DNA of 21,707 bases from positions 1 to 21,707 of IMG/VR virus record IMGVR_UViG_3300023174_004933; one strand, written 5' to 3'. Every line of letters begins with the position of its first letter. Position 1 is the stretch's first letter. Under the pieces are notes generated by a model. The model was not told the DNA's origin, searched no databases, and saw nothing but the letters and a program-made list of their open reading frames with translations. The translations under genes and the position numbers were made by a program. Below, piece after piece: positions 1,886 through 17,816 of this stretch. The stretch is from a virus.

Positions 1886-1913
1886 ATAGAGTGTGGGGCA
1901 ACTCACACTCTAT
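1886..1913 (+). terminator. Strong intergenic hairpin between gp32 and uvsX
   Basis: A perfect 10-bp stem (1886-1895 / 1904-1913) with an 8-base loop lies between the two genes. The following bases TTCTC form only a weak T-run, so it is more likely a partial terminator or 3' stabiliser that keeps gp32 mRNA more abundant than uvsX mRNA than a full stop. uvsX has no promoter of its own that I can see. Confidence 0.6.
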
Positions 1914-1934
1914 TTCTCAACAGGGCAAAACATA

Positions 1935-3014
1935 ATGGCAAAAGCATTTGATATTTCTAAATTTAGAAAGTCAATTACTAAATCTATCGACGGTTTAAGT
2001 ATTGGCTTTAACGACCCAACGGATTGGGTTAGCACAAACAACTACGCATTAAACTATCTTATCAGTGGTGACTTCAAACGAGGTATTCCACTAGGCAAGG
2101 TTACTGTGTTTGCTGGTGAAAGTGGTGCAGGTAAGAGTTTTATCTGTTCAGGCAATCTAGTAAAGAACGCACAGGCACAAGGCATCTTTCCGATCTTGAT
2201 CGATACAGAAAATGCACTTGACGAAAAGTGGTTACACGCACTTGATGTTGATACAAGTCCAGATAAGTTGCTAAAACTTAACATGGCCATGATCGATGAT
2301 GTAGCAAAGACTATTACAGAATTTGTTGCAGAATATAAAACAATGCCTGAAGACGAGCGTCCTAAAGTATTGTTTATTATCGACAGTCTTGGAATGTTAC
2401 TGACCCCTACTGATGTTAACCAGTTTCAAGCCGGGGATCTCAAAGGCGACATGGGTCGTAAACCTAAAGCACTCACCGCACTAGTTCGCAACTGTGTAAA
2501 CATGTTTGGTAGTCTAGGCATTGGTCTTGTAGCAACAAATCACACATACGCAAGTCAAGACATGTTTGACCCAGATGATAAAATTTCAGGCGGTCAAGGT
2601 TTTATCTATGCAAGTTCAATTGTAGTTGCTATGCGCAAGTTGAAATTGAAACTTGATGCAGACGGCAATAAAACTACAACTGTGCAAGGTATTCGTGCAG
2701 CCTGTAAGATTATGAAAACTCGTTACGCAAAGCCGTTTGAAAGTGTACAGGTTGAGATTCCTTATGAAACAGGTATGAGTCCATATAGTGGATTAGTCGA
2801 CTTGTTCGAAGCCAAAGGCATGCTCAAGAAAGAAGGTAACAGCCTTGTATACACCACCAAAGATGGTGAAATCATCAAGCAGTTCCGCAAGGCTTGGGAA
2901 CGTAATGAGAAAGAAGGGCTAGACATTGCCATGGACGACATTTCGAAACATGGTGAAATTTCCGCTTCAGAGATAACTACTATTGTTGAACCTGAAACGG
3001 AGACTCAAGAATGA
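1935..3014 (+). CDS. uvsX: UvsX, RecA-like recombinase
   Basis: Predicted 359 residues, similar to T4 UvsX (391). It would form ATP-dependent filaments on single-stranded DNA and drive strand invasion for recombination-dependent replication. Walker A is GESGAGKS (residues 61-68); Walker B is VLFIID (145-150) followed by Ser-Leu-Gly. The ATP-dependent loop region with Asp-Met-Gly-Arg-Lys-Pro-Lys-Ala, typical of UvsX rather than RecA, follows near 175. The C-terminus is acidic. I chose ATG 1935 because the frame-extending GTG at 1893 lies inside the hairpin stem and adds residues not expected in the family; AGGG at 1922-1925 is a modest ribosome site. The stop overlaps the next start by ATGA, so the two are translationally coupled. 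Confidence 0.94.
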   Translation: MAKAFDISKFRKSITKSIDGLSIGFNDPTDWVSTNNYALNYLISGDFKRGIPLGKVTVFAGESGAGKSFICSGNLVKNAQAQGIFPILIDTENALDEKWLHALDVDTSPDKLLKLNMAMIDDVAKTITEFVAEYKTMPEDERPKVLFIIDSLGMLLTPTDVNQFQAGDLKGDMGRKPKALTALVRNCVNMFGSLGIGLVATNHTYASQDMFDPDDKISGGQGFIYASSIVVAMRKLKLKLDADGNKTTTVQGIRAACKIMKTRYAKPFESVQVEIPYETGMSPYSGLVDLFEAKGMLKKEGNSLVYTTKDGEIIKQFRKAWERNEKEGLDIAMDDISKHGEISASEITTIVEPETETQE

Positions 3015-3732: not shown

Positions 3733-4494
3733 ATGAAAAAGATCGTTTTAATCACTGGAGGATTTGATCCTCTACATTCTGGGCATATCGCTTATTTTAA
3801 AGCAGCAAAAGCATTAGGAGATATTCTTGTTGTTGGTGTTAACTCAGATGCATGGTTAACACGCAAGAAAGGATCTCCTTTCATGCCCTATCAAGAACGT
3901 GCAGAAATTGTACGTAACATTGTTGGCGTAGATTTTGTCATAGACTTCAACGACAACGACGGATCAGCAAAACATGCTATCAAAATGGTTCGACAAAGTT
4001 ATCCACAAGATCTTATTATTTTTGCCAACGGCGGAGATAGAACCAACGACAATATTCCGGAAATGGACATTGCTGACGATAACTTGCAATTTGTGTTTGG
4101 TGTCGGCGGATTTAATAAAGCAAATTCTAGTTCTTGGATTTTACAAGAATGGAAAGCTCCTAAAACAGAACGTCAGTGGGGTTACTATCGAGTATTGCAC
4201 GAAGTTCCAGGCATGAAAGTCAAAGAACTCACAGTCAATCCCGGCAAAAGCCTAAGTATGCAACGACACAATCAACGTGCAGAATATTGGATTGTCAGCG
4301 AAGGCGAAGCTGTGGTTAACAGAGCAACGCCATTGAATTTTCAACTACCACCTGCGCTGTTAGATAAGCACGATCAATTGCATGTTGCAGTACAGGAGTG
4401 GCACCAACTTACAAATCCCCATGAATATCCATTAAAAATTGTAGAAATACAATACGGTGAACAGTGTGTTGAAGAGGACATCGAAAGAAAATGA
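3733..4494 (+). CDS. Nucleotidyltransferase-cupin fusion protein (nucleotide-sugar supply)
   Basis: Predicted 253 residues in two domains. Residues 1-140 are a cytidylyltransferase-fold nucleotidyltransferase: GGFDPLHSGHI (9-19) holds the nucleotide-binding His15-x-x-His18, and Asn-Ser-Asp (37-39) and Asn-Ser-Ser-Ser (131-134) match later motifs of the RfaE/HldE C-terminal and TagD type enzymes. Residues about 147-247 are a cupin like the C-terminal part of mannose-6-phosphate isomerase/GDP-mannose pyrophosphorylase, with GKSLSMQRHNQRAEYWIVSE (171-190) and His224. The combination suggests activation of a phosphorylated sugar or polyol with CTP or ATP plus sugar isomerisation or sensing; the substrate is not readable. 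It is the first gene of the accessory block and overlaps the next gene by ATGA. Confidence 0.8.
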   Translation: MKKIVLITGGFDPLHSGHIAYFKAAKALGDILVVGVNSDAWLTRKKGSPFMPYQERAEIVRNIVGVDFVIDFNDNDGSAKHAIKMVRQSYPQDLIIFANGGDRTNDNIPEMDIADDNLQFVFGVGGFNKANSSSWILQEWKAPKTERQWGYYRVLHEVPGMKVKELTVNPGKSLSMQRHNQRAEYWIVSEGEAVVNRATPLNFQLPPALLDKHDQLHVAVQEWHQLTNPHEYPLKIVEIQYGEQCVEEDIERK

Positions 4495-5162
4495 AAGTTT
4501 TTGTAGGATACGATATTAGAGAAGATATTGCATTTCAAGTCTGTGAACACAGCATATATAAACATCAACCTCAAGCACAGGTCATGGCGTTAAAACAGCA
4601 AGAACTTAGAGAGAGCGGTATCTACACCAGAGACATTGATCCCTTAAGTTCTACAGAATTTACCTTTACACGATTTTTAGTTCCGTATCTTACAAATTAC
4701 CAAGGTTGGGCAGTGTTCGTAGACTGTGATTTTGTTTTTGTCGATGATGTTGCTGAACTGTTTAAACAGGCTGACGACAAATATGCAGTGATGGTAGTCA
4801 AACATGACTATACTCCTAAAGAAGGCCTAAAGATGGACGGATGCAAGCAATTGCCATATCCAAGAAAGAATTGGAGCTCGGCAATTTTATGGAATTGTGC
4901 TCATCCATCTAACAAACAGATAACTCCTGATGTAGTAAATTCTCAAACCGGGCAGTATCTGCATAGATTTCAATGGTTAGATGATTCAGAAATTGGAGAC
5001 TTAGCACCAGAATGGAATTGGTTAGCAGGATGGTACCAAGAGCCTCGAGACGGCGTTCCTAAAGCAGTACACTATACTGAAGGGGGTCCTTGGTTCAAAG
5101 AATATCGACGTTGCGAGTATCACAAAGTATGGAAACAAAATCTACGTGAGATGTTAAAATGA
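4491..5162 (+). CDS. GT-A fold glycosyltransferase, GT8-like
   Basis: Predicted 223 residues. The N-terminal Val-Phe-Val-Gly-Tyr-Asp strand, TEFTFTRFLVPYL (55-67) and a VFVDCDFVFVDD segment (75-86) with the metal- and nucleotide-sugar-binding Asp78-x-Asp80 define a GT-A glycosyltransferase resembling GT8-like enzymes found in phages. A C-terminal Val-His-Tyr-Thr-Glu-Gly-Gly-Pro-Trp supplies the usual late His and a Gly-Gly-Pro-Trp-Phe motif. It is expected to be cytosolic and to move a sugar from a UDP- or GDP-sugar; acceptor and donor are unknown. It overlaps both neighbours by ATGA, so it belongs to a coupled string with the nucleotidyltransferase and the GT-B-like paralogues. Confidence 0.82.
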   Translation: MKVFVGYDIREDIAFQVCEHSIYKHQPQAQVMALKQQELRESGIYTRDIDPLSSTEFTFTRFLVPYLTNYQGWAVFVDCDFVFVDDVAELFKQADDKYAVMVVKHDYTPKEGLKMDGCKQLPYPRKNWSSAILWNCAHPSNKQITPDVVNSQTGQYLHRFQWLDDSEIGDLAPEWNWLAGWYQEPRDGVPKAVHYTEGGPWFKEYRRCEYHKVWKQNLREMLK

Positions 5163-5953
5163 TCTTCTTAAGCAAAGATGGTGCCGACCCTTATATCAAT
5201 ATGTTTGCACAAGGATGCAAAACTAAGATAACATCAACTGACGAGTTTAATTATCATGATAGTACCGATACTATTGTGTTAAGAGGCATACTTAAGAAAA
5301 AGTGGATGCATCAGTGTTGGGAAGATGCTAGAACTTTTTACTATATGGATACAGGATATTTTGGTAACGAACGAACTGATTCAAATCCTAACGGTTGGAA
5401 ATATTGGCACCGCATAGTAAAGAACAATCTACAACATGGTGAAATAGTTCCGAGAAAAGATGATAGATTCAAACACTTTAACAAGAAATTTCAGCCTTGG
5501 AAAAAAGATGGTAGAAAGATACTAGTGGCAAAACCAGACGAAAAACCTATGAGATTCTATGACTATGATCTAGACATCTGGTTAGAACATACAGTAAATG
5601 AAATAAAAAAATACACAGATAGACCTGTAGTAGTTAGAGAGCGAGCACCTAAAAGATTAGATAGAATAGCCAATGACACACTAGAGCAGGCTCTAAATGA
5701 CGATGTATTTGCATTGGTTACATTTAACAGTGTAGCGGCCACGGAAGCTGTATTTCAAGGAATACCGGCATTCACTCTAGCACCAGCTAATGCTGCTAGC
5801 CCTGTTAGTCTGCAAGATCTATCTAAAATTAACGAACCTTACTATCCTGACCAAGATAAATTATATGCATGGGCATGTCACTTATCATACGGTCAGTTCC
5901 ATAACTCAGAACTAAAAAACGGCAAAGCCATGGAGATGTTATTGAATGGATGA
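5159..5953 (+). CDS. GT-B-like family member 1 (of six), capsule-synthesis type
   Basis: Predicted 264 residues. It belongs to the six-member family of this window, recognised by a shared order of motifs: YYMDTGYFGN (61-70), WHRIVKN (83-89), a helix and strand Trp...Glu-Ile-Lys-Lys-Tyr-Thr-Asp-Arg-Pro-Val-Val-Val-Arg (141-160), TFNSVAATEAVFQGIPAF (188-205), and a C-terminal LSYGQF followed by Glu-Leu-x-x-Gly. The Asn-Ser...Glu-Ala...Gly-Ile-Pro-Ala motif is the donor-binding signature of capsule-synthesis (KpsC/KpsS-like) GT-B enzymes. The His-Pro expected after the preceding Arg is missing here (Arg-Glu-Arg-Ala-Pro). It overlaps the upstream gene by ATGA and the next by 8 bases. Function: probable sugar transferase or inactive paralogue. 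Confidence 0.7.
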   Translation: MIFLSKDGADPYINMFAQGCKTKITSTDEFNYHDSTDTIVLRGILKKKWMHQCWEDARTFYYMDTGYFGNERTDSNPNGWKYWHRIVKNNLQHGEIVPRKDDRFKHFNKKFQPWKKDGRKILVAKPDEKPMRFYDYDLDIWLEHTVNEIKKYTDRPVVVRERAPKRLDRIANDTLEQALNDDVFALVTFNSVAATEAVFQGIPAFTLAPANAASPVSLQDLSKINEPYYPDQDKLYAWACHLSYGQFHNSELKNGKAMEMLLNG

Positions 5954-6695
5954 AGAACAATTTAGAAAATCGATTCCAGGTATGTCTCCTTCAATTTTTC
6001 GAGGAGTAGTTAAGAGAAAACACATACAACATCACTGGCAGAATAAACAAGATTTCTATTACATGGATACAGGGTATTTTGGTAACTTTATAAGTCCTGG
6101 AAATCCCGGCGGAAAAAAACTGTTCCATAGAATAGTCAAAAATGATTTACAAAAACATTGGTTAGAAAATTATCCTAACGATCGGTGGAAAGAAATTTGC
6201 AAAATTGATCCTAGGTATAAATGGAACGGGTGGAAGAAACAAGGAAGCAAGATTTTAATAATTGTACCAAATAGAAAATCTTGTGTATTTTATGGCTACG
6301 ACACTGATCCATACATCAACGGCGAAAAACCTTGGCTAATGAATACCATAGAAACTATAAAAAAACACACAGACATGGAGATTGTTATTAGAGAAAAAGG
6401 CAGTAGGTCAGCACGTCAATATCATTCAATATTTGATGCCCTAGATGAAGATGTATTTGCCACAGTGGCTTTCAATAGTATTGCAGCATTAGAATCTGTG
6501 ATATACGGAATTCCTGCGTTTGTCACTGTGCCGTGTGCAGCATCTCCCCTGTCCCTAACTGACCTCAGTCAAATATCTACACCGTTTTATCCGGATGAAT
6601 CTTTGGTACAACAACACTGTGCATCGTTGGCCTATGGACAATTTACCGGAGAAGAAATAGCCGATGGCACAGCATGGAAATTATTAAACAAATGA
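5946..6695 (+). CDS. GT-B-like family member 2, close tandem relative of member 1
   Basis: Predicted 249 residues. FYYMDTGYFGN (37-47), HRIVKNDLQ (61-69) and FNSIAALESVIYGIPAF (176-192) are nearly identical to those of member 1, as is Ser-Pro-Leu-Ser-Leu-x-Asp-Leu-Ser-x-Ile after it, so the two probably arose by tandem duplication. Compared with member 1, the N-terminus is about 24 residues shorter and lacks the first beta strand. The His-Pro position reads Arg-Glu-Lys-Gly-Ser, so the motif is lost. The start at ATG 5946 overlaps the previous stop by 8 bases; the ATG at 5950 is out of frame. Role as for member 1: probable glycosyltransferase-like protein, activity uncertain. Confidence 0.7.
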   Translation: MDEEQFRKSIPGMSPSIFRGVVKRKHIQHHWQNKQDFYYMDTGYFGNFISPGNPGGKKLFHRIVKNDLQKHWLENYPNDRWKEICKIDPRYKWNGWKKQGSKILIIVPNRKSCVFYGYDTDPYINGEKPWLMNTIETIKKHTDMEIVIREKGSRSARQYHSIFDALDEDVFATVAFNSIAALESVIYGIPAFVTVPCAASPLSLTDLSQISTPFYPDESLVQQHCASLAYGQFTGEEIADGTAWKLLNK

Positions 6696-7786
6696 AACTT
6701 TTAGTAAATGACAAAGAATTAGCAAACTATCTTATTTCTTTAATAGATCTTAAAGAAATTTGCAGTAAGCATCAGATACATCCCATACATGTACAAGACG
6801 CAATAAATTTTATTATTCAAAAAAGAGATCATCATAAATTTGATATTAATAAATTTAGAGATAAATTCAAAGAAAAATTGTATAGAGGAAATTTAGCAGA
6901 CGTACATGATTGGTCGAAAGAAGTTAAGAAAACCTTGAGCTTTTACAGAGTGAATCATTTTAAAAAGATTCACAAGCACGTTGAATACTTTATAGATAGA
7001 CTAGGTGAAAAAGATATCATAGATAGATATATCAACAGTGACAGTCAGTATTTTATTAAAACAGTAGGAATGCAAATTGATCCTACAGCTGAAATGATAC
7101 GCAGGAAAGATTTTAAAGATATCTACGAAGACTGTCTACTAAGGAATACTGTAGGTAATGAAAATATTTTAGTAGATAAAATTGATAGTAACTTACCTTT
7201 TTGGTTTATTGATAGTGGATATACTAATTTTATAGAGCCAAATAAAAAATGGCATAGATTAGTAAGAAACCACCTGCATTTCAACACTCATTTCGATGCG
7301 CCAGTTGATCGATTATCGTCTTTTAAAAGTTTTCCGAGACCTTGGCAACACAACGGTAAAGCAATTTTAATTGTTGAGCCGGGAGAGTTTGCAGCTGGTA
7401 TATTTCATACAGATGCTAAAATATGGGGTCAACAAGTAGCGGAAGAATTAAAAAAGTATACAGATCGTCCTATAGAATTTAGATCTAAGACAAATAAAAA
7501 AACTAGAAAAAGTCTGTATCAGCAGTTATTAACAGGAGACTATTACTGCACAATTAGTATTAATTCAAATAGTGCTATCGAATCTATTTGGGCTGGAATT
7601 CCTGCTATTACTCTCGACAAGCATGTCAGCAATGCTGTAACTAGAAACAGTCTTGAACAGATCAATGATCTGTACTACGGACCGTTGGGTGATTGGTTGG
7701 CATGGCTCAGCTATTGTCAATTTACCTACGACGAACTCATGGATGGAACAGCACTAACTATTATCAAGGAATATCACGGTGTCTAA
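6692..7786 (+). CDS. GT-B-like family member 3 with a long unique N-terminal extension
   Basis: Predicted 364 residues from ATG 6692, which overlaps the previous stop by ATGA as most junctions here do; an in-frame ATG at 6674 would add six residues. Residues 1 to about 165 are helical, Lys-rich and unlike anything else in the window. The family part begins at FWFIDSGYTNF (170-180), then WHRLVRN (187-193), Lys-Lys-Tyr-Thr-Asp-Arg-Pro (254-260), INSNSAIESIWAGIPAI (290-306) and Leu-Ser-Tyr-Cys-Gln-Phe near 339-344. The His-Pro motif is absent (Arg-Ser-Lys-Thr). Base composition is strikingly A+T-rich in the extension (for example 12 G+C in 6841-6900), which may indicate a separate origin. Probable glycosyltransferase-like protein with an added binding or partner domain. 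Confidence 0.65.
   Translation: MKLLVNDKELANYLISLIDLKEICSKHQIHPIHVQDAINFIIQKRDHHKFDINKFRDKFKEKLYRGNLADVHDWSKEVKKTLSFYRVNHFKKIHKHVEYFIDRLGEKDIIDRYINSDSQYFIKTVGMQIDPTAEMIRRKDFKDIYEDCLLRNTVGNENILVDKIDSNLPFWFIDSGYTNFIEPNKKWHRLVRNHLHFNTHFDAPVDRLSSFKSFPRPWQHNGKAILIVEPGEFAAGIFHTDAKIWGQQVAEELKKYTDRPIEFRSKTNKKTRKSLYQQLLTGDYYCTISINSNSAIESIWAGIPAITLDKHVSNAVTRNSLEQINDLYYGPLGDWLAWLSYCQFTYDELMDGTALTIIKEYHGV
7766..7770 (+). promoter_or_regulatory. Ribosome binding site fixing a GTG start
   Basis: AAGGA lies 8 bases before GTG 7779, inside the end of the preceding gene. It supports GTG as the true start of the next gene. Confidence 0.6.
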
Positions 7787-8702
7787 TATCACTGCTGTGG
7801 CCTATTATGCTGGGATACCTCCCAATAACCATAACATGGAGAAGCCGCAGATATTAAATTATTTTTGTCAAGGAGTCACTGCGGCCGGCGATACTGCAAT
7901 AGCGCATACTGGGATGAATGCGATTCCTTGCGACGTGGCACTGATACAAGGATTTGTTCACGAGCACGGCAAGTCTGCACCGCATCTACAACTAAGACAA
8001 AGTGCTGTAGATCTTCAAAAGAAAAATAACAAACGATCGTTGATTGTAGATAGTAATTTGTTTCTATACGCAGACAAATCTAATGCCTTGCATTATTTGA
8101 GATATAGTTTTGATGGAGTGTTTCCAACTACGGGATTTTATTTTGATAAAGATATCGATCCTAGTCGCTGGACACAGATCAGCAAAGATTTAGGCATAAG
8201 TTTACAGCCTTGGAGAACACAGGGGAATCATATTCTAATCTGCCTGCAGAGAAACGGCGGGTGGAGCATGAGAGGATTAGATGTTATTGAATGGATGAAC
8301 TCGACTATTTTAGAAATAAGAAAATATAGTAAGCGTCCGATTATTGTTAGAGCTCATCCCGGCGATAAAAAAATTGGAAGCTACTTGAAGGTAAATCATA
8401 AATCAGCATCATTGAGTGTCAACCCTGATCTCAAAGAAGATTTGATCAATGCATGGGCCACTGTGGTGTATAACAGCAGTCCCAGTGTGGCTAGTATTAT
8501 ACAGGGAATTCCTGCATTCTTAACAGATCCGCAACCCCAACACAGTCAAAGTGTTGCAGTGGCCAATACTGATATAAGTAAAATAGAAGATCCTGTGATG
8601 TTAGATAGACAGGCATGGATAGAAAGATTATCTATGTGTCATTGGAAATTTGATGAATTAAAATCTGGCGAAGCATGGCAATTTTTTAAAAAGTATATAT
8701 GA
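7779..8702 (+). CDS. GT-B-like family member 4, with intact His-Pro motif
   Basis: Predicted 307 residues from a GTG supported by AAGGA at 7766-7770. The N-terminal half (1-150) forms its own alpha/beta domain with Ala-Leu-Ile-Gln-Gly-Phe-Val-His-Glu-His (54-63), like the N-terminal domain of capsule-synthesis GT-B proteins. The C-terminal half has RPIIVRAHPGDKK (186-198) with the His-Pro, then YNSSPSVASIIQGIPAFLTD (231-250). His-Pro plus Ser-rich motif is the nucleotide-binding pair of CMP-sugar-using capsule transferases (KpsC/KpsS and polysialyltransferase relatives), so this copy is the best candidate for an active enzyme; the donor is inferred. It overlaps its neighbours by 8 and 4 bases. 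Confidence 0.75.
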   Translation: MSNITAVAYYAGIPPNNHNMEKPQILNYFCQGVTAAGDTAIAHTGMNAIPCDVALIQGFVHEHGKSAPHLQLRQSAVDLQKKNNKRSLIVDSNLFLYADKSNALHYLRYSFDGVFPTTGFYFDKDIDPSRWTQISKDLGISLQPWRTQGNHILICLQRNGGWSMRGLDVIEWMNSTILEIRKYSKRPIIVRAHPGDKKIGSYLKVNHKSASLSVNPDLKEDLINAWATVVYNSSPSVASIIQGIPAFLTDPQPQHSQSVAVANTDISKIEDPVMLDRQAWIERLSMCHWKFDELKSGEAWQFFKKYI

Positions 8703-9298
8703 AAGATTATAAATGGAATGCGGTTTTTAAGCCGTTGATAGAAAAATATAAACCCAAAGACTTCTGTGAAATTGGGTGTCATGAAGGGCTAACGCTAAAA
8801 TCTCTAACCCCACTTATCAAAGAACTTGGATATAAAATTAATTATATCGGGTACGATGCATTTGAATTAGCTGACAGACCTACATTTGAATATCCAAAAA
8901 ATCCCATCACAGGAGAAATGGAACATAACGGTAAAGAGTCTGCATCATACAACATAATTAAAGAACGATGCGAAAAGTATGTTAAGAATGATTTATTAGA
9001 ATCTTATGATTTAATCAAAGGTTGGACGCATGATACATTGATCGGTCCGCTGATATTTGATATGGTATATATAGATGGCGGGCATTCATATTCCACAGTC
9101 AAGTGGGACTATGAACATGTTAAAGACAGTAAAATTATAATATTCGACGATACATATCCAGTAAAATTTCCAGGAGTAGCTAAATTCATAGAAGAATTAA
9201 AAACTTCAGGAATACCAGTAACAGAATTAATTGAAAAAAATGCAGAAGGAAAAACTATAATGCAATGCGCAATTATTATTAACGAGAACACAATATGA
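8699..9298 (+). CDS. Class I SAM-dependent methyltransferase (Methyltransf_24 type)
   Basis: Predicted 199 residues. The glycine-rich SAM motif is FCEIGCHEG (22-30), with Tyr-Asp-Ala-Phe (52-55) as the acidic end of strand 2. MVYIDGGHSYSTVKWDYEHV (122-141) is the hallmark of the family that includes cephalosporin hydroxylase-like and glycan O-methyltransferases, where Asp and His bind metal. Asp-Asp (149-150) after Ile-Ile-Phe supports this. It probably methylates a sugar or a small glycan precursor made by the surrounding enzymes; the substrate is not readable. ATGA overlaps on both sides place it in the same coupled string. Confidence 0.8.
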   Translation: MKDYKWNAVFKPLIEKYKPKDFCEIGCHEGLTLKSLTPLIKELGYKINYIGYDAFELADRPTFEYPKNPITGEMEHNGKESASYNIIKERCEKYVKNDLLESYDLIKGWTHDTLIGPLIFDMVYIDGGHSYSTVKWDYEHVKDSKIIIFDDTYPVKFPGVAKFIEELKTSGIPVTELIEKNAEGKTIMQCAIIINENTI

Positions 9299-10008
9299 AA
9301 AAATTAAAAAACGGGTGGATGGTTCCTGATGACGATACCAGAGTCTCATTCTTGTTAGAAAAAGACACTGATATGTTTTCTCCTTCTTACGAAGACAAGT
9401 ATAGACAGGAAATAATAACTCATCTTCCTAATCAGCGAACATTTGTCGATGTCGGCGCTAATGTCGGTATTTGGAGTTTGCCAATGACCAAGCATTTTAA
9501 AAAGATAGTTTCTTATGAGCCATCTCAACAAAATATCGAATGCATAAAAACAAACATTCCGAATGGTATTGAACTTCGTGAAAAAGCTGTGGCAGACTTC
9601 AACGGTGAAGCTAACTTCCATCAAGCCGGAAAAAATTGTGGAGACGGAAAACTATGTCGAGACGGCGTAAAGTCTACATACACTGTTCCTGTGGTAAAAT
9701 TAGATGATGAAAATTTAGAAAATGTTGACTTGGTCAAAATTGATACTCAAGGATGGGAACTAGATGCGCTAAAAGGTATGCATAACATCATAACAACACA
9801 ACGACCATGGATTATGATAGAAGTCAACGAAGATATTGATCTATGCTGCGACTTGATGGAAAAATACGGATATGAAACTATCTATGTTAAAAGCAAACGA
9901 AATTTTGTCTGGGCACCTAAAACTGGGCATAACAGTCCTGCAGACACAAGTATTCTAAAAAGATATTTGGGACCTGGACCGTATGCAGAGAGATTTGGTG
10001 GGAAATAA
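9295..10008 (+). CDS. FkbM-family methyltransferase (first copy)
   Basis: Predicted 237 residues. FVDVGANVGIW (50-60) is SAM motif I, Tyr-Glu-Pro (74-76) binds the ribose, and VDLVKIDTQGWELDALKGM is the FkbM post-motif with the typical Lys-Ile-Asp-x-Gln-Gly-x-Glu. FkbM enzymes O-methylate sugars or polyketides, which fits the surrounding glycan genes. The C-terminal tail Arg-Tyr-Leu-Gly-Pro-Gly-Pro-Tyr-Ala-Glu-Arg is extra. It starts with an ATGA overlap and is the last + strand gene of the first accessory block: its TAA is separated by one base from the stop of the convergent - strand gene. Confidence 0.88.
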   Translation: MKKLKNGWMVPDDDTRVSFLLEKDTDMFSPSYEDKYRQEIITHLPNQRTFVDVGANVGIWSLPMTKHFKKIVSYEPSQQNIECIKTNIPNGIELREKAVADFNGEANFHQAGKNCGDGKLCRDGVKSTYTVPVVKLDDENLENVDLVKIDTQGWELDALKGMHNIITTQRPWIMIEVNEDIDLCCDLMEKYGYETIYVKSKRNFVWAPKTGHNSPADTSILKRYLGPGPYAERFGGK

Positions 10009-10009
10009 A

Positions 10010-10777
10010 CTAGTTAATAAGTTTCCAAGCCAATCCAGAAAGCAATTCTTCTCTAGTAAATTGAGAATACGCTAGATGATTCAACCAAGCCTGTTTATCA
10101 CTAAGATAAGCAGGCTTTATCTTTTCAATATCTTCTAATTGATAATTGTATAAACTTTTTGTAGCAGAATGACCTAAAGATATTACCGGTATGTCGTGCA
10201 TGGCTGCTTCGACTAATGCGTTTGAAGAATACCCTATTACACAAAAGGTATCGTCTTTAATAAAATCTTTAAATGTGTTTGAAACTATGCGATCAGCTCG
10301 CGGTTCCGGACGTTTTCTTATTTTAATTATTCGATCTGTGAAACTTTTTATTTTAAGAACAGTTTCTTCAATCCACTGGTCTTCTGAACCTAGCCCAAGT
10401 GTATGCACTATTTTTCTATCAGGTGGTACAATAACTATTTTAGACCCGTGTTTAAAAGAAGATTGTTCTATATTCAGTTGTTGCCATCTATCCGCAGGTC
10501 TGTCTATAATAGGATCAACATTTTGAAAATTATTAATACTTAATCTAAAAATTGTTTTCTTCTTTTTATTACCAAAATATCCGCTGTCTAAATTATAAAA
10601 TTTTAAATTATATTTTTTGCAGATTTCCAACCACTGAGGTTTGAAAAATCCTGCCCAACACATGGGTAGTGTGGTATTTTTATACATGTCCTCGCCGCTG
10701 ACAAATTTTCCACTACTTCCTTTAGTGAATTCAGTAGCACCGTAATCGGTACCTTCCACACATATGAAATTTGTCAT
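10010..10777 (-). CDS. GT-B-like family member 5, on the minus strand
   Basis: Predicted 255 residues. I chose ATG 10777 because it overlaps the preceding gene by ATGA; a TTG at 10783 is the alternative and adds two residues. Family motifs: FYNLDSGYFGN (60-70), Arg-Leu-Ser-Ile-Asn-Asn-Phe (78-84), KIKSFTDRIIKIRKRPEP (142-159), YSSNALVEAAMHDIPVISL (183-201) and HLAYSQFTREELLSG (234-248). The order and spacing match member 1 almost residue for residue, so it is a dispersed and inverted copy. The His-Pro site reads Arg-Lys-Arg-Pro, losing His but keeping Pro. Probable glycosyltransferase-like protein. Its 3' end abuts the convergent FkbM gene. Confidence 0.7.
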   Translation of the reverse strand: MTNFICVEGTDYGATEFTKGSSGKFVSGEDMYKNTTLPMCWAGFFKPQWLEICKKYNLKFYNLDSGYFGNKKKKTIFRLSINNFQNVDPIIDRPADRWQQLNIEQSSFKHGSKIVIVPPDRKIVHTLGLGSEDQWIEETVLKIKSFTDRIIKIRKRPEPRADRIVSNTFKDFIKDDTFCVIGYSSNALVEAAMHDIPVISLGHSATKSLYNYQLEDIEKIKPAYLSDKQAWLNHLAYSQFTREELLSGLAWKLIN

Positions 10778-11607
10778 TGCCAATAAGATTCTGTTCTTGG
10801 AACTTTTAGATCTTCGGGCTTGCTACGGCCTAGTTTCTTTCTACCACCTTTGAGATGATCTAACCAAGCACCCCAATCACTGTTTATTAACGGGTGTCCT
10901 TCACCGGTGCTACTCCCTGGATGAGGTTTGAGGTTATGTAGATGTGCAGCCCAGTCTAGCTGTCGCATCTGAGGGAATTTTATTCTAACAGCATCAAAAA
11001 CAAAACTGTCATGCCATTCAGCTAATTGAAAAATTCCCTGTTCCGCTTGATCATAAAATCGTTGGAATTCTTTGAGAAACATTTGAATGTTAGGCGATCG
11101 CAAATTCATGGCGTAAAGCCCGCATTCTGAATACTTGCCCTTTCGACCCAGATAACATAACTCGCTATCTGAAGGAATCATTCTGTATAGATCGTTCATG
11201 GTGATAGGACTGTGACAAATAGTATCTGCATCCATCCATATCAAAATATCTGCATCTGTTTCTTTGGCACAATCAAATATTGCATATACTTTGTGTGCAA
11301 ATCTCACAGCATGCCATTTGAATCCCTTACCGGAATCTTTTCTTTTAGATCTCACAGGGTCAGATGAAACATCGCCGTTGGCTTTGGGCACATCTTTCCA
11401 GGTATTTTTAAATGTCATTAACTCTGGAATTTCTTCTAATCGTTTTAATGTAACATGGCTATGATCACGTATAGCAGGATTACATTGTTCTGGATAAATG
11501 TGTAAAATTACTTCATGAGGCCAGTTTGCACAGAATGTATCAATCATTTTTTGTGCATATTTTTTTAAACCTTCTTCGTGGAAGGTAGTAACCACTGCTA
11601 TCTTCAT
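10774..11607 (-). CDS. GT-A fold glycosyltransferase, phage type
   Basis: Predicted 277 residues. The N-terminal Lys-Ile-Ala-Val-Val-Thr-Thr-Phe strand, a Trp-His-Ala-Val-Arg-Phe-Ala-His-Lys segment (98-106), and Leu-Ile-Trp-Met-Asp126-Ala-Asp128-Thr (the DxD metal site) make it a GT-A enzyme. Tyr-Leu-Gly-Arg-Lys-Gly-Lys-Tyr-Ser-Glu-Cys-Gly (from about residue 152) and Trp-His-Asp-Ser-Phe-Val-Phe-Asp-Ala-Val-Arg near 198-208 follow. The gene at 17085-17816 shares this order of motifs, so the two are paralogues; this copy has an added C-terminal tail of about 30 residues. Donor and acceptor are unknown. It overlaps both neighbours of its minus-strand string by ATGA. Confidence 0.8.
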   Translation of the reverse strand: MKIAVVTTFHEEGLKKYAQKMIDTFCANWPHEVILHIYPEQCNPAIRDHSHVTLKRLEEIPELMTFKNTWKDVPKANGDVSSDPVRSKRKDSGKGFKWHAVRFAHKVYAIFDCAKETDADILIWMDADTICHSPITMNDLYRMIPSDSELCYLGRKGKYSECGLYAMNLRSPNIQMFLKEFQRFYDQAEQGIFQLAEWHDSFVFDAVRIKFPQMRQLDWAAHLHNLKPHPGSSTGEGHPLINSDWGAWLDHLKGGRKKLGRSKPEDLKVPRTESYWQ

Positions 11608-12002
11608 CTATAATATTCCCATACGTGAAAAATTCCCTGCAAGCTAGTACACGCCCATCCCGAATCGTACAAAGGCTTGGCCATAGTATTATCTATACGA
11701 ATGCCGCCTTCAATGAAAAGTATTGAATTGTGATTTTTCCATAAAGCTTCTACTTTGTCAAGATTGCACAACTCATTATGGTCAACAAAAATTGATGTAA
11801 TGTTTTGTATATGGTCTAATTTAACAAACGTCTCTTTGTAAATAAGATTCTTAGCTTTAACAGATGGTCGATCTGCACTAACTACAAACACAGTATCGTA
11901 CACTTCTAAAACTTGGTCTAACATTCCAAAAGCTGATCCTAGCACTAGGGCATGAGCATGATTTCTTGAAAGTTTGTGCAGTCTTTTTTGGAATTTGGTC
12001 AT
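11604..12002 (-). CDS. Small conserved-looking phage protein, Rossmann-like, unknown function
   Basis: Predicted 132 residues. Residues about 16-42 (Ala-His-Ala-Leu-Val-Leu-Gly-Ser-Ala-Phe-Gly, then Val-Phe-Val-Val) resemble a beta-loop-alpha start of a Rossmann fold, and Ser-Ile-Leu-Phe-Ile-Glu-Gly-Gly near 93-100 looks like a later strand. There is no clear SAM motif or DxD. The C-terminus ends Gly-Ile-Phe-His-Val-Trp-Glu-Tyr-Tyr. Proteins of this look sit near glycosyltransferase genes in aquatic T4-like phages as far as I recall, but I cannot assign a role. It is first in the minus-strand string, read from the divergent promoter region, and couples to the glycosyltransferase by ATGA. Confidence 0.7.
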   Translation of the reverse strand: MTKFQKRLHKLSRNHAHALVLGSAFGMLDQVLEVYDTVFVVSADRPSVKAKNLIYKETFVKLDHIQNITSIFVDHNELCNLDKVEALWKNHNSILFIEGGIRIDNTMAKPLYDSGWACTSLQGIFHVWEYYR

Positions 12003-12006
12003 AATC

Positions 12007-12014
12007 TATAAATA
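12007..12014 (+). promoter_or_regulatory. T4-type late promoter box
   Basis: TATAAATA matches the T4 late promoter consensus exactly, in the 50-base divergent gap. Late transcription would start about 6 bases further right, near 12020, giving a leader of about 33 bases for the gene at 12053. No Shine-Dalgarno is seen before that gene. Confidence 0.6.
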
Positions 12015-12038
12015 TACAGCAACATTAACTACGTAGAT

Positions 12039-12046
12039 TATTTATT
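12039..12046 (-). promoter_or_regulatory. Possible late promoter for the minus-strand block
   Basis: On the minus strand these bases read AATAAATA, one mismatch to TATAAATA, with an inferred start near 12033 and a leader of about 30 bases to ATG 12002. An 8-bp palindrome CTACGTAG (12029-12036) lies between the two divergent boxes. Confidence 0.4.
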
Positions 12047-12052
12047 AAAATT

Positions 12053-12877
12053 ATGCGCTTCAGATTATATCGAGAATATGGTGCCTTGAACAGTCCTGCA
12101 GTATTTGATGCTGTTGAACAAGGGCTAAGACAACAAGGACATGAAATTGTCACCGACAACGAAGACGTTTCAGTGATATGGTCAGTGTTATGGTCAGGTA
12201 GAATGCGACAAAACAAACTGATATACGAACAGTGTCAGCAGATAGGCAGGCCTATATTGATAGTAGAAGTAGGAAATCTAAAAAGAGGCGAAACTTGGCG
12301 GATCAGTCTCGACCACATTAACAATCTTGGAAAATTTGGCAACGATATCGACCTTGACCTGCATAGGCCTGAAAAATTAGGTGTTAAATTAAAGCCAATC
12401 CCCACAATACGGCGTGGTGAAATACTCATTGCCTGTCAACATCAAGAAAGTCTTCAATGGCAGGGAATGCCTGCCATGAAAGATTGGGTAGCAGACACTA
12501 TTGAAAAAATAAAACAGCACACCCATAGAAGAATTCGTGTGAGATACCATCCTCGGTCAGCATTTCCATTTAAACAGTCCGGGGTAGAGGTAGAAAGACC
12601 CATACGCATACCCGACACCTATGATGATTTTGATATTTTTTACAATTATCATTGTGTGATCAATCACAACAGTGGCCCAGCTGTTCAAGCAGCCATAAAC
12701 GGTGTCCCTGTACTATGTGACTCGTCTAGTTTGGCCGCAGATCTCAGCATCAAATGGTCAGAACTAGACAGTCCCTATATACCAGACCGGTCTGAATGGT
12801 TTTTAAAACTATGTCACACCGAGTGGACGGTCGACGAAATACGCCAAGGCATACCAATTTCTAGATTATTCAGTTGA
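12053..12877 (+). CDS. GT-B-like family member 6, with intact His-Pro motif
   Basis: Predicted 274 residues. The N-terminal domain (1-120) is a distinct alpha/beta fold, Trp- and Arg-rich. The family half has WVADTIEKIKQHTHRRIRVR (145-164) running straight into Tyr-His-Pro-Arg (165-168), then INHNSGPAVQAAINGVPVLCD (203-223, Asn-x-Ser-Gly signature) and a degenerate C-terminal Cys-His-Thr-Glu-Trp-Thr-x-Asp-Glu-Ile-x-x-Gly. The His-Pro and Asn-Ser pair make it a good candidate for an active capsule-type transferase, together with member 4. It is alone between a late promoter box and a sigma70 promoter whose -35 overlaps its stop codon. No ribosome site is evident before ATG 12053. Confidence 0.75.
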   Translation: MRFRLYREYGALNSPAVFDAVEQGLRQQGHEIVTDNEDVSVIWSVLWSGRMRQNKLIYEQCQQIGRPILIVEVGNLKRGETWRISLDHINNLGKFGNDIDLDLHRPEKLGVKLKPIPTIRRGEILIACQHQESLQWQGMPAMKDWVADTIEKIKQHTHRRIRVRYHPRSAFPFKQSGVEVERPIRIPDTYDDFDIFYNYHCVINHNSGPAVQAAINGVPVLCDSSSLAADLSIKWSELDSPYIPDRSEWFLKLCHTEWTVDEIRQGIPISRLFS

Positions 12878-12908: not shown

Positions 12909-14093
12909 ATGTTACCATCAGAATTTGCCGAAGACATATTTGTTGAATTTTATAAACTTGTTGCTCAACAAAAAATCTCCATACAAGGTCAAGACTTTTC
13001 ACCGATCTCAAGTTTCCACGAAAAAATCATCAACGGCGGAGAATTGACCAAAAATCAGGCAAATTTTCTCGTCAAATTATTAGAAAAATATAAAACCATT
13101 TCTGTTGCAGCCGGGCTTGATTATAGAAATCAACTTAACAATCTTAAATGGAAGAAGTTATTCAGAGTTCTAGATCTCAGTAAAAAAATATATGTAGAAC
13201 TGCGTGAAAACAAACTGGAAATTTGTCTAAAATTTCCTTATCAACTGAAAAAAGAGTTTGAAGATGAAATTGAACGTCGAGAAACTCTTCATGCTCATAG
13301 TTTTTGGGATCCCGATAATAAGGTAAGACGCTTGGATTTTTATCATTATAACTTAATCACATTATACGAATTTGTCTGTAAGCATAATTTTGAAATTGAC
13401 GATACTTTTATGAATGTTTTGTCGGATGTAGAAGAAATTTGGCAAAATTCTGAAGATGCCATACCATACAGCGAACTTGGAATATATGGCGTTCAATTGA
13501 CAAACGCCAGCGACGAAACTGTAGAGTGGTGGCAAAGTAATAAAGCCAGTAGCATCAATAAAGATTTGTTATTGGCTAAAAGTATGGGATTTTTATACCG
13601 AGAAAAACCTCGAAATTTAGTGGAAAAAATCGCAGCCAGCCAAGAAAACAGTTTCTGGATGAAAACCAATCAAGATTTTTTTGAGTTGTCTAAATCTTTT
13701 TCCGGAAAAATATGTGTGTTACTAGATCGAAGCAGTGCCACATTACCATGGCTACAAAATTTCGTGGCAGATGCTGAAAACAGTGGGGTCGACCGTGAAG
13801 AAATCAAGGTGTGTTTTAGAGATAATAAAGAATCCACTACTGGATTAAATGAATGGATCAAGGTCGCAGGGGTTGGCGGCAAAGTCGAGACAGGAAGGAT
13901 ATTAATTTTTGAATCAAAGCCAGCCAAGTGGTTGTTTAAGGCTGACAATGATGTTACACTAGTAGTAACAAATAACATTTTCCCACCAACAAATACCATG
14001 GCACGGGATTGGTTTATGTGTCATCCTTGTGTGATATATCTTGGGAATACTAGACCAACAGAAACCAAAGGACAAAAAATTGTCGAATTGTAA
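12909..14093 (+). CDS. Unknown phage protein upstream of and overlapping uvsW
   Basis: Predicted 394 residues, soluble. No catalytic motif is certain. Residues about 35-65 (Phe-His-Glu-Lys-Ile-Ile-Asn-Gly-Gly-Glu-Leu-Thr-Lys-Asn-Gln-Ala) and the Cys-Leu-Lys-Phe-Pro-Tyr near 110-116 recall N-terminal accessory regions of phage helicases, and the second half (residues 260-394) has several beta-strand/loop units such as Val-Leu-Leu-Asp-Arg-Ser-Ser and Leu-Val-Val-Thr-Asn-Asn, like a nucleotide-binding or helicase-like core without a P-loop. It ends inside the uvsW start (14 bases of overlap), so a complex with UvsW is a reasonable inference. It starts at the inferred transcription start of a strong promoter. 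I do not recognise the family. Confidence 0.8.
   Translation: MLPSEFAEDIFVEFYKLVAQQKISIQGQDFSPISSFHEKIINGGELTKNQANFLVKLLEKYKTISVAAGLDYRNQLNNLKWKKLFRVLDLSKKIYVELRENKLEICLKFPYQLKKEFEDEIERRETLHAHSFWDPDNKVRRLDFYHYNLITLYEFVCKHNFEIDDTFMNVLSDVEEIWQNSEDAIPYSELGIYGVQLTNASDETVEWWQSNKASSINKDLLLAKSMGFLYREKPRNLVEKIAASQENSFWMKTNQDFFELSKSFSGKICVLLDRSSATLPWLQNFVADAENSGVDREEIKVCFRDNKESTTGLNEWIKVAGVGGKVETGRILIFESKPAKWLFKADNDVTLVVTNNIFPPTNTMARDWFMCHPCVIYLGNTRPTETKGQKIVEL
14067..14072 (+). promoter_or_regulatory. Ribosome binding site fixing a TTG start for uvsW
   Basis: AAAGGA ends 7 bases before TTG 14080, within the end of the preceding gene. It favours 14080 over the in-frame TTG at 14041, which has no ribosome site. 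Confidence 0.55.
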
Positions 14094-15534
14094 GTTAACA
14101 ATCAAAGACGAAGTAAACATCAAGGTAGAAGGACTACGAGTCGAAACACGGCGGAAAATTGTCAATAAATTAAAGTTCGATTTACCCTATGCCCGACACA
14201 TGCCTGCATATAAACTAGGTCGTTGGGATGGAACTAAAACTTATTTTAATATCGGCGGCAGTGGATATCTTGCACACCTTGATGTGATTCTAGCAGTGAT
14301 CGAAGATGAAGGATATGACATTGAAGTTGAAGATCTCAGGCCACATCAGGAATTAAAATTTGCTGCTATTGATGAAAATTATTGGGCTAATTTAGGAAAG
14401 ACGTGGCCTAAGGGACATCAGCAGGCAGGAGAACCTATTGTACTGAGAGACTATCAGTATGAAGTAATCAATAAATTTTTAGAAAATCCTCAAGCCCTGC
14501 AAGAAGTTGCTACCGGTGCCGGAAAAACAATTACTACAGCTACCTTGAGCCATCTATGTGAACCTTATGGTCGCACTATGGTGGTTGTTCCTAATAAATC
14601 ATTAGTGGTGCAAACCGAAGAAGACTATCGTAATCTCGGACTAGATGTAGGTGTGTATTTTGGCGATAGAAAAGAACTAGGCAAGACGCATACTATATGC
14701 ACCTGGCAGAGTTTGAATGTATTAGACAAGAAAAGTTATGACAATGACACCATGACATTGGCAGAATTCTGCGAAGGTGTCTGTGCAATTATTGTTGACG
14801 AAGTTCATCAGGCCAAGGCCGAAGTACTAACTAAACTACTAACACAAAACTTTCGCAACTGTGCCATCCGCTGGGGATTAACAGGAACAGTACCTAAAGA
14901 ACAGTGGGAATTTCAAGGCATATTAGCTAGTATAGGTCCTGTGATTAATCAAGTGTCTGCACATGATCTACAAGAAAAAGGTGTATTAGCACAGTTGAAT
15001 ATCAACGTGTTGCAGACCACAGACGTACAGGTGTTTAATTCATTCCAAGACGAATATTCCTTTCTGGTCACTGACGACAACCGATTACAATGGATTGCTA
15101 GTAAGATCACTGCGCTATCTGCTACCGGCAACACTCTGGTGTTGATTAACAGGATCGACACAGGAAAAAAATTAATTGAGTTGATGCCTCAAGCAGTGTT
15201 TGTCAGCGGTGGAATGAAACTAGATGACCGCAAGGAAGAATATGACGAAATTAAAACAAGTGATGACAAGATTATTTTGGCGACTTATGGTGTGGCCGCT
15301 GTGGGTATTAATATTCCAAGGATTTTTAATTTGGTTCTTCTTGAACCCGGAAAGAGCTTTGTCCGCGTTATACAAAGCATTGGGCGAGGCATTAGAAAAG
15401 CAGAAGACAAAGATCATGTAGAGATCTGGGATATTACCAGCACCTGCAAATACGCCAAGAGACATCTTACAGAAAGAAAAAAGTTTTATAAAGAGGCCAA
15501 ATACCCCTTTACCATTACCAAGGTTAATATATGA
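14080..15534 (+). CDS. uvsW: UvsW-like SF2 DNA/RNA helicase
   Basis: Predicted 484 residues, close to T4 UvsW (503). UvsW unwinds branched DNA and R-loops and shifts replication from origin- to recombination-dependent mode. An N-terminal DNA-binding region (1-85) holds Leu-Gly-Arg-Trp-Asp-Gly (46-51). Helicase motifs: a Q-type LRDYQYEVI (122-130), Walker A ATGAGKT (144-150), DEVH (240-243), Leu-Thr-Gly-Thr motif III (near 269-272), and a late IQSIGRGIRK (motif VI). The start is TTG 14080 because of AAAGGA just upstream and because this is where family similarity begins; an in-frame TTG at 14041 is weaker. It overlaps the 394-residue protein by 14 bases and the next gene by ATGA. Confidence 0.93.
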   Translation: MSNCKLTIKDEVNIKVEGLRVETRRKIVNKLKFDLPYARHMPAYKLGRWDGTKTYFNIGGSGYLAHLDVILAVIEDEGYDIEVEDLRPHQELKFAAIDENYWANLGKTWPKGHQQAGEPIVLRDYQYEVINKFLENPQALQEVATGAGKTITTATLSHLCEPYGRTMVVVPNKSLVVQTEEDYRNLGLDVGVYFGDRKELGKTHTICTWQSLNVLDKKSYDNDTMTLAEFCEGVCAIIVDEVHQAKAEVLTKLLTQNFRNCAIRWGLTGTVPKEQWEFQGILASIGPVINQVSAHDLQEKGVLAQLNINVLQTTDVQVFNSFQDEYSFLVTDDNRLQWIASKITALSATGNTLVLINRIDTGKKLIELMPQAVFVSGGMKLDDRKEEYDEIKTSDDKIILATYGVAAVGINIPRIFNLVLLEPGKSFVRVIQSIGRGIRKAEDKDHVEIWDITSTCKYAKRHLTERKKFYKEAKYPFTITKVNI

Positions 15535-16409: not shown

Positions 16410-17084
16410 ATGAGTAATCCGGTAGCAGAACAACTGAGAGCTGCGTTTGGCACATTTATCCCTAACACATGTCTTGATATCGGTGCGAATACCGGACAGT
16501 TTGCTACCGAATGGCAAAAAGTATTTCCGAGATGCAACATAACATCAATCGAGCCAAATCCTCATTGTGAAAAGGGATTGAAAAAATTAAGAGTTAACTA
16601 TTTCCAATATGGGATATCGGATAGAGTTGGAGAATTAGAACTTATTTTGCCCAAAGCTAAATCCAAGTCTAAGGGTGCATCATTTTATAAAGAAATTAAT
16701 TTCAACAAGTTGCCCGATGAGGAAATTTTAAAAATTAAAGTTCCTGTAACCACTCTTGATACTCTGTTTCAGAATGAAACGTTCGATGTAATCAAAATTG
16801 ATGTTCAAGGAGCTGAATTGGATGTTATCAACGGCGGTAACTCGATCTTAGAAAGAACTGCGTATGTTATCATAGAAGTTTCTCTAGTTCCTTACAATAC
16901 TGGAGCGCCGTTGGCAGATGTAATCGTACGCCGCATGGAAAATTTTAATTTTTTTGTTCAAGACATTGTCGGCATGCACACTAATAAATCCGGCGATACA
17001 ATACAACTAGATTTATTATTTTCAAAAATTGGCGCACATCGATTATCTGCTGTCAATGATGTTAAAACAAAATTGGGATTATAA
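16410..17084 (+). CDS. FkbM-family methyltransferase (second copy)
   Basis: Predicted 224 residues. CLDIGANTGQF (21-31) is SAM motif I, Ile-Glu-Pro-Asn-Pro (47-51) holds the acidic residue, and FDVIKIDVQGAELDVINGG is the FkbM core motif. It differs from the copy at 9295 in being shorter and in lacking the Cys-rich segment there, so the two may act on different sugars. It probably O-methylates a sugar of the glycan. The ATG follows the cupin stop after one base and the next gene starts directly on its stop. Confidence 0.87.
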   Translation: MSNPVAEQLRAAFGTFIPNTCLDIGANTGQFATEWQKVFPRCNITSIEPNPHCEKGLKKLRVNYFQYGISDRVGELELILPKAKSKSKGASFYKEINFNKLPDEEILKIKVPVTTLDTLFQNETFDVIKIDVQGAELDVINGGNSILERTAYVIIEVSLVPYNTGAPLADVIVRRMENFNFFVQDIVGMHTNKSGDTIQLDLLFSKIGAHRLSAVNDVKTKLGL

Positions 17085-17816
17085 ATGAGAATAGGAATTG
17101 TAACTACCTTTAGCGATAAAGGGTATGAAGAATACGGAAAGTATTTTGTAGAAAGTTGTAAAAAATTTATTAGCAAAGATATAACAATATTCTTCTATGT
17201 CGATAACATCAATATCACACCTGAATCAAATTTTGTTGTAAGAAAATTAGAAGAATCTGTGCCCGATCTAACAATTTTTAAAAATAGAAACAAAGATAAA
17301 ATTGCTGGAAAATTTATAAACGATGCTGTGAGATTCAGTCATAAAAGTTATTGCATATATCATGCAGCAAATAACACCGATGTAGATCTATTAATTTGGC
17401 TAGACAGTGATACAGAAATTTACGATAATATTGATAAATCCTACCTAACTAAATTTTTGCCAGAAGGATTATTCACTAGTTATCTAGGAAGACCGCACTA
17501 TTCGGAAACAGGATTCCTTGCGTTTGATCTACGAAATCCCCATAGCAAAGAATATTTTGAATTGTTTAAATGGTATTATGATTCTGATGAAATTTACAAG
17601 TTACCAGGCCAATTAGATTGTCATGTGTATGATGCAGCCAGAGTGCGATTAGAGAATGAAGGGAAAATAAAAAATTATGATCTATCACCCCCAGGTATTG
17701 GAAAGAATCATTTTAATCATGTGTTCGAAGGGTACATGATTCATTACAAGGGTGACCGAAAAGAAAAAAGAGATGAGCAGATTGCCCGAGCATTAAAAAG
17801 AAAACATAAAAAATGA
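17085..17816 (+). CDS. GT-A fold glycosyltransferase, paralogue of the 10774-11607 gene
   Basis: Predicted 243 residues. It follows the plan of the minus-strand glycosyltransferase: Ile-Gly-Ile-Val-Thr-Thr-Phe, Ala-Val-Arg-Phe-Ser-His-Lys (81-87), Leu-Ile-Trp-Leu-Asp107-Ser-Asp109-Thr with the DxD, Tyr-Leu-Gly-Arg-Pro-His-Tyr-Ser-Glu-Thr-Gly, and Leu-Asp-Cys-His-Val-Tyr-Asp-Ala-Ala-Arg. A late His-Tyr-Lys-Gly-Asp-Arg-Lys completes it. Shorter in the N-terminal loop and tail than the other copy. Donor and acceptor unknown. The sequence TATAAATG over its start resembles a late box but overlaps the start codon, so I do not count it as a promoter. Confidence 0.8.
   Translation: MRIGIVTTFSDKGYEEYGKYFVESCKKFISKDITIFFYVDNINITPESNFVVRKLEESVPDLTIFKNRNKDKIAGKFINDAVRFSHKSYCIYHAANNTDVDLLIWLDSDTEIYDNIDKSYLTKFLPEGLFTSYLGRPHYSETGFLAFDLRNPHSKEYFELFKWYYDSDEIYKLPGQLDCHVYDAARVRLENEGKIKNYDLSPPGIGKNHFNHVFEGYMIHYKGDRKEKRDEQIARALKRKHKK

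Follow-up and report, generated by a model that had tools for sequence, protein, structure and literature searches.

Six paralogous proteins are encoded between the uvsX and uvsW genes of an IMG/VR virus fragment (record IMGVR_UViG_3300023174_004933; the window, meaning the whole stretch of DNA analysed, comprises 21,707 bases). From structural models and profile comparisons the best reading is that they form a phage branch of the two-domain, glycosyltransferase B (GT-B)-like fold of the retaining 3-deoxy-D-manno-oct-2-ulosonic acid (Kdo) transferases. All six lack the catalytic aspartate of those enzymes, and they are encoded in a locus that is conserved in related phages. We consider the chances about even that they form the core of a glycan island and act as transferases of altered chemistry, building an oligosaccharide that is probably placed on a virion protein. 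The window carries gp32-, UvsX- and UvsW-like genes and a T4-type portal protein is present in nine of the ten long relatives tested, so that the virus is taken to be a T4-like myovirus. The proteins are named M1 to M6:

5159..5953, + strand: M1, paralogue assigned to the Kdo-transferase fold, site type C (P126-x3-P130; R160-x-R162), from AlphaFold2, Foldseek and motif tables
5946..6695, + strand: M2, sister of M1, site type C (R-x-K), from identity to M1, the tree and the motif table
6692..7786, + strand: M3, site type C (EPGEFA; R-x-K), from pairwise scores and motifs
7779..8702, + strand: M4, site type B (Q156-x3-G160; R191-AHP), from AlphaFold2, Foldseek and the motif table
10010..10783, - strand: M5, site type C (PPDRK; R-x-R-P), accessory in relatives, from pairwise scores, synteny and the motif table
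12053..12877, + strand: M6, site type B (Q-x3-S; RYHP), core member of related arrays, from the scan, array survey and motif table

Homology and fold of the six proteins

The genes lie where the sequence-only reading had placed them, with four in tandem, M5 inverted and M6 apart. That reading gave the start of M3 as 6692, which is the most likely position: in the open reading frame (ORF) beginning at 6674, the alignment with many orthologues starts at residue 7. M5 probably starts at the ATG at 10777. The six are homologous. Every one of the 15 pairs outscores all of 200 shuffles (Smith–Waterman z 8.4–88), the lowest real score being 81 versus a best shuffled score of 67, and blastp E-values among the proteins range from 1e-62 to 2e-5. 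M1 and M2 are 43% identical, and the remaining pairs 21–33%. The motifs occur in the order originally described. An invariant Trp with Thr or Val four residues on, I/V-x-x-R, N/S-S, GIP or GVP, and an aromatic block near the C-terminus that includes E and G are common to all six, and an (M/I/L)D(T/S)GY block is confined to M1, M2, M3 and M5. The N domain of M2 is without its first strand, and M3 bears an N-terminal extension of about 110–150 residues. Searching the record with the family profile returns exactly these six members. Look-ups of the six in Pfam, PHROGs and NCBIfam gave sub-threshold or meaningless matches only, a near-identity search against GenBank phages gave none, and neither the six nor the 91-member family set matches PF05159 (Capsule_synth) above the gathering score.

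AlphaFold2 models of M1 and M4, built with 85 family members, have a mean predicted local distance difference test score of 96.4 and 94.5 respectively, with a predicted template modelling (TM) score of 0.91 each. When these are compared with the PDB using Foldseek, the 14 best matches of M1 are all retaining beta-Kdo transferases (KpsC, WbbB or KrkA; E from 9e-5), with WbbB at the top. The 28 best matches of M4 are all drawn from the same three enzymes, headed by KpsC (E from 1.7e-8, probability 1.00, TM-score up to 0.59). Ordinary GT-B enzymes and UDP-N-acetylglucosamine 2-epimerases rank below the Kdo transferases in these lists. A 91-member sequence profile searched against the PDB has WbbB as its sole relevant match (E 0.0046), extending over RxHP...NSS..EA. 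HHalign to 14 bacterial KpsC/KpsS-type modules, drawn from Pseudomonadota genomes, gives a probability of 95 with the QXXXD and KxHP motifs in register with those of the phage proteins; the E-value of 2.9e-8 is that of a single-pair comparison, uncorrected for a database. The earlier assignment to a GT-B-like fold is thus supported, and is sharpened to the Kdo-transferase fold. Both models point to that fold, and the profile–profile comparison agrees.

The KpsC/KpsS beta-Kdo transferases (GT107, PF05159) have the same two-domain layout as M4 and their (K/R)xHP and QXXXD positions align with the phage proteins, but identity is 10–13%, the QXXXD nucleophile is missing from all six phage proteins and the HP motif from four. 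The beta-Kdo transferase WbbB (GT99) matches the phage profile over RxHP and NSS..EA..G. The Kdo transferase KrkA (GT140), a structural match of both M1 and M4, is another sequence-divergent member of the fold (PMC12887879). Unlike the phage proteins it retains Q189TLND193 and the HP motif, and it is a bacterial capsule enzyme.

The active site

The retaining Kdo transferases have an absolutely conserved nucleophilic Asp within QXXXD, and a (K/R)XHP motif that binds cytidine monophosphate (CMP) (PMC12887879, PMC10148158). In WbbB the nucleophile is Asp232 (PMC9587256), a position taken in the phage proteins by G, S, P, A or another residue. The site was tallied on a family alignment of 94 representatives. 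The Asp is missing in all six proteins and in all 72 representatives of their orthologues, and is present in just six of the 94, all of which have the canonical Q, D and H. These are ct7QV12, four members from relatives of the window (one from contig L134 at 3865-4884, two from L153 and one from L170) and a single protein of bacterial origin. A further 34 retain Q and His without the Asp, the position of which is mostly Gly or Ser. M4 and M6 with their orthologues belong here, keeping Q and RxHP with Gly or Ser in place of Asp. In 53 representatives, including M1, M2, M3 and M5 with their orthologues, both Asp and Q are gone and Lys or Arg replaces His (46 with Pro at the Q position, seven with another residue). 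A single representative combines Q with Lys. The Arg of RxHP (R160) is found in all 94. The retaining Kdo transferases also have a phosphate Ser and, where the next helix begins, a Glu that binds ribose. Of these the Ser (Ser191) occurs in nearly all representatives, and the Glu (E196) is nearly invariant in M1, M2, M3 and M5 and is replaced by Gly or Ala in M4 and by Gln in M6. Another residue of these enzymes, the general-base Glu, is located on different secondary-structure elements in different families (PMC12887879).

Orthologues are fixed for one replacement motif, and each group has its own (LQRNGGWSM for M4, CQHQESLQW-like for M6 and KPDEKPM for M1). Moreover, the ratio of nonsynonymous to synonymous substitution (dN/dS) for M1–M6 is 0.03–0.14 (window versus six relatives, where dS could be estimated), so the changes in the site are not the result of decay. 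The values for UvsX and UvsW are near these, at 0.02–0.09. All six are maintained proteins under strong purifying selection. The minimum number of changes on the tree is two for the nucleophile and one for RxHP, and the linkage of the Q and His states thus goes back to a single event or a small number, and did not arise many times over. Placing the six within the retaining Kdo transferase families (GT99, GT107 and GT140) was rejected, the nucleophilic Asp having been looked for and found absent. The bacterial member L310:9250-10101 has an intact canonical site (GQVPGDAS, RPHP, SST..E). In a very divergent branch outside the island (L149:17554-18324, L160:18182-18970 and L087:146-934) GERTMACVEAVM replaces the NS..EA motif.

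These sites appear to have departed from Kdo double-displacement chemistry, suggesting a non-Kdo donor or a direct-displacement mechanism. M4 and M6 have the site that would be expected for a CMP-sugar enzyme acting without a covalent intermediate. CMP-sialic-acid-dependent inverting transferases likewise carry (K/R)xHP (PMC12887879) without the retaining nucleophile, although they are absent among the M4 PDB Foldseek matches listed. M1, M2, M3 and M5 have two basic residues at the positions of the KpsC Arg/Lys and His. These would suit a nucleoside-diphosphate sugar, since Lys or Arg in place of His fits a nucleotide sugar with two phosphates. We tentatively propose, at somewhat less than even probability, that these are glycosyltransferase families not described before, derived from the retaining Kdo-transferase fold through loss of the nucleophile and change of donor and mechanism. 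Every stage would still be visible, as canonical, Asp-less and fully rebuilt sites, both among related phages and next to one another within a single array.

Alternatively catalysis might have been lost in some or all of the six, which would then assist the island's other transferases as scaffolds or as subunits that bind glycans, and the absence of the nucleophile from all six and of the His from four, together with the coexistence of core and accessory members, is consistent with this. We nevertheless regard it as quite improbable, because R160, S191 and (in M1, M2, M3 and M5) E196 of the nucleotide site are nearly invariant, and because a second basic residue always stands in for His, which looks like retuned phosphate binding.

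The array in related phages and its history

Using single members as queries, scans of viral contigs returned 76 loci for M1, 18 for M5, 72 for M6 and 63 for M3. A profile survey of the loci from the M1, M5 and M6 scans and four GenBank phage regions identified 687 family members, a count in which members recur wherever two loci on the same contig overlap. Selecting contigs with both M1 and M6 gave 41 distinct contigs, in which arrays of three to seven members lie between uvsX and uvsW (the count of seven includes split ORFs). Whole-record searches of 13 long contigs of the group found three to seven members in each. The order M1 M2 M3 M4 M5 (inverted) M6 seen in the window recurs in 11 arrays, and in eight more M5 alone is absent. 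M4 is present in nearly all arrays, and the inverted genes for a GT-A-like and a 132-residue protein directly precede M6 in nearly all. M4 is split into short ORFs in contigs L129 and L170, by frameshift or assembly error. The interval between M1 and M4 is occupied by M2 and M3, by another paralogue, by a paralogue with a canonical site, or is empty. The flanks are steady: to the left lie uvsX and a pair of small genes, and to the right the gene for a 394-residue protein, uvsW and another two genes. The array is a conserved locus, with no recent expansion. The sequence-only reading knew of no phage region with such repeated gain of one family; the multi-member array is not peculiar to this phage, being present in the 41 contigs. 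Beyond this group, two members are found in Pelagibacter phage Mosig and two in Caulobacter phage CcrColossus. The open-licence literature yielded no description of the array. The suggestion that the locus generates variable glycans is plausible, because relatives differ in M2, M3 and M5 and in what lies between M1 and M4.

In the tree each of M1–M6 forms a clade with its own orthologues (97–100% on both supports). M1 and M2 are sisters (94/80), M1, M2, M3 and M5 group together (84/95), and the HP-bearing side is supported at 100/94. M4 and M6 are parted by outside rows, for example a podovirus protein and a bacterial protein. Forcing the six into one clade that excludes the 22 outside rows, some of which have long branches that call for caution, costs 100 log-likelihood units (approximately unbiased test, p 5.8e-6), and a single in-phage radiation of all six is rejected. 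The history read from these groupings is thus one of duplication within M1/M2/M3/M5, with M4 and M6 as separate old lineages. Of the earlier proposal of one family with many in-phage duplications, the part concerning M1, M2, M3 and M5 holds, and that of an exclusive six-member clade falls.

Members are also found elsewhere. GenBank phages with members are Mosig (two copies), Caulobacter phages, ct7QV12 and DSL-LC06, and the sole plasmid match is a Bradyrhizobium phage-plasmid. Mosig and CcrColossus resemble the window in that their members, hypothetical proteins recognized by profile, lie within or beside glycan-type genes, but they have two copies compared with three to seven and are very divergent. 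Among 398 Pseudomonadota, profile searches gave a strong match in two and a weak, partial one in a third; among 296 Bacteroidota they gave none, the latter search being without a positive control. A scan of bacterial genomes with M4 8-mers found no relative. Two bacterial chromosomes carry members, and a virus-only origin is rejected. Members with canonical QXXXD occur in sister phages and one bacterium. Strong structural matches among viruses are to CcrColossus, uncultured phages and four proteins of Tetraselmis virus 1. The latter has at least four proteins of the fold (BFVD A0A2P0VP54, A0A2P0VNK4, A0A2P0VP74 and A0A2P0VP72; TM-score about 0.7 to M4), named 'Capsule polysaccharide biosynthesis' or uncharacterized. 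They form a multi-copy viral set like that of the phages, but this is a giant virus of an alga, and the proteins have 14–19% identity and were compared by fold only.

The glycan island and its proposed function

The array is embedded among the following genes:

1893..3014, + strand: UvsX/RecA-like recombinase (Pfam RecA; synteny), conserved left border of the island
3733..4494, + strand: nucleotidyltransferase (CTP_transf_like) fused to a MannoseP_isomer cupin (Pfam; synteny), core island gene
4491..5162, + strand: GT8-like glycosyltransferase (Pfam Glyco_transf_8, E 3e-4; synteny)
8699..9298, + strand: Methyltransf_24 methyltransferase (Pfam; synteny), accessory
9295..10008, + strand: FkbM methyltransferase (Pfam; synteny), accessory
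10774..11607, - strand: GT-A-like protein with a DAD motif, core, inverted in all relatives (synteny; paralogue of the 17085-17816 protein)
11604..12002, - strand: 132-residue protein, core, inverted in all relatives, with a weak Spermine_synth match (Pfam; synteny)
14041..15534, + strand: UvsW-like helicase (Pfam ResIII/DEAD/Helicase_C; synteny), conserved right border

The neighbours linked to glycans or nucleotide sugars comprise the nucleotidyltransferase–cupin fusion, GT8, GT-A-like and two FkbM proteins, an epimerase, a UDP-glucose dehydrogenase and GT25. The GT-A-like protein and that at 17085-17816 (+ strand) are paralogues (31% over 259 residues, E 3e-34), and neither has a Pfam match. 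The FkbM methyltransferases at 9295-10008 and 16410-17084 are distant paralogues (28% identity), and relatives of the window have up to four FkbM genes. The 132-residue protein keeps its inverted place in most arrays, with identity falling to about 27–50% in many. The 394-residue protein (12909-14093) adjoining uvsW is without a Pfam match, and diverges much faster (35–96%) than its neighbours uvsW and u168.

The array together with the GT8, GT-A-like, FkbM and nucleotide-sugar enzymes would add sugars sequentially in the cytosol to a soluble acceptor, and the oligosaccharide would then be capped. Our first guess for the acceptor is a virion protein, because in four unrelated phages or phage-plasmids (CcrColossus, the Bradyrhizobium phage-plasmid, ct7QV12 and DSL-LC06) relatives adjoin tail, portal, terminase or lysis genes. 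The same locations argue against the idea that the array remodels surface polysaccharide (lipopolysaccharide or capsule) of the infected host, for instance to prevent superinfection, as does the absence from the window of a membrane-embedded partner (flippase, polymerase or lipid-linked transferase). None of the island proteins has a clear membrane segment. The structural relatives KpsC, WbbB and KrkA are all enzymes of host surface glycan synthesis (PMC10148158, PMC12887879) and the bacterial homologue L310:9250-10101 adjoins GT2-like and sulfotransferase-like genes, and we consider this alternative unlikely but deserving of some weight.

The DNA glucosyltransferases of T4 are GT-B proteins encoded near uvsX. 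The array also adjoins uvsX, in a T4-like phage, and addition of sugars to DNA is known in phages (PMC6024577). Glycosylation of the phage DNA by the array is very improbable, however. A thymidylate-synthase-type hydroxymethylase (PF00303) was not found in 15 records of relatives of the window (several of 186–282 kb, possibly incomplete), nor was a Tet/JBP match over the cut-off in ten records, again possibly incomplete. Around the array lie FkbM, GT25 and sugar-nucleotide genes, not genes for base-modifying enzymes, and the nearest solved folds are Kdo transferases.

The following points weigh against oligosaccharide synthesis on a virion protein by active transferases. The TM-scores to solved structures are 0.4–0.6 only. 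The island is roughly 60–85 kb from the portal gene in T4-like relatives, so that the virion target leans on other phages. A CMP-sugar synthetase (PF02348) was not found in ten phage records, and M4 and M6 would therefore need host CMP-sugars or another donor. Lastly, the loss of catalytic residues could mean that the proteins are non-catalytic.

So far the retaining Kdo-transferase fold has been recorded in just a small number of bacterial enzymes, for capsule and O-antigen, and how it originated in evolution is described as unclear (PMC10148158). The present analysis reveals a modular glycan island flanked by two replication genes, and assigns a likely role to proteins that match nothing convincingly in Pfam or PHROGs and belong to a T4-like group of dozens of contigs. 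The group-specific, fixed replacements of the nucleophile provide a natural series for testing change of donor and mechanism in glycosyltransferases.

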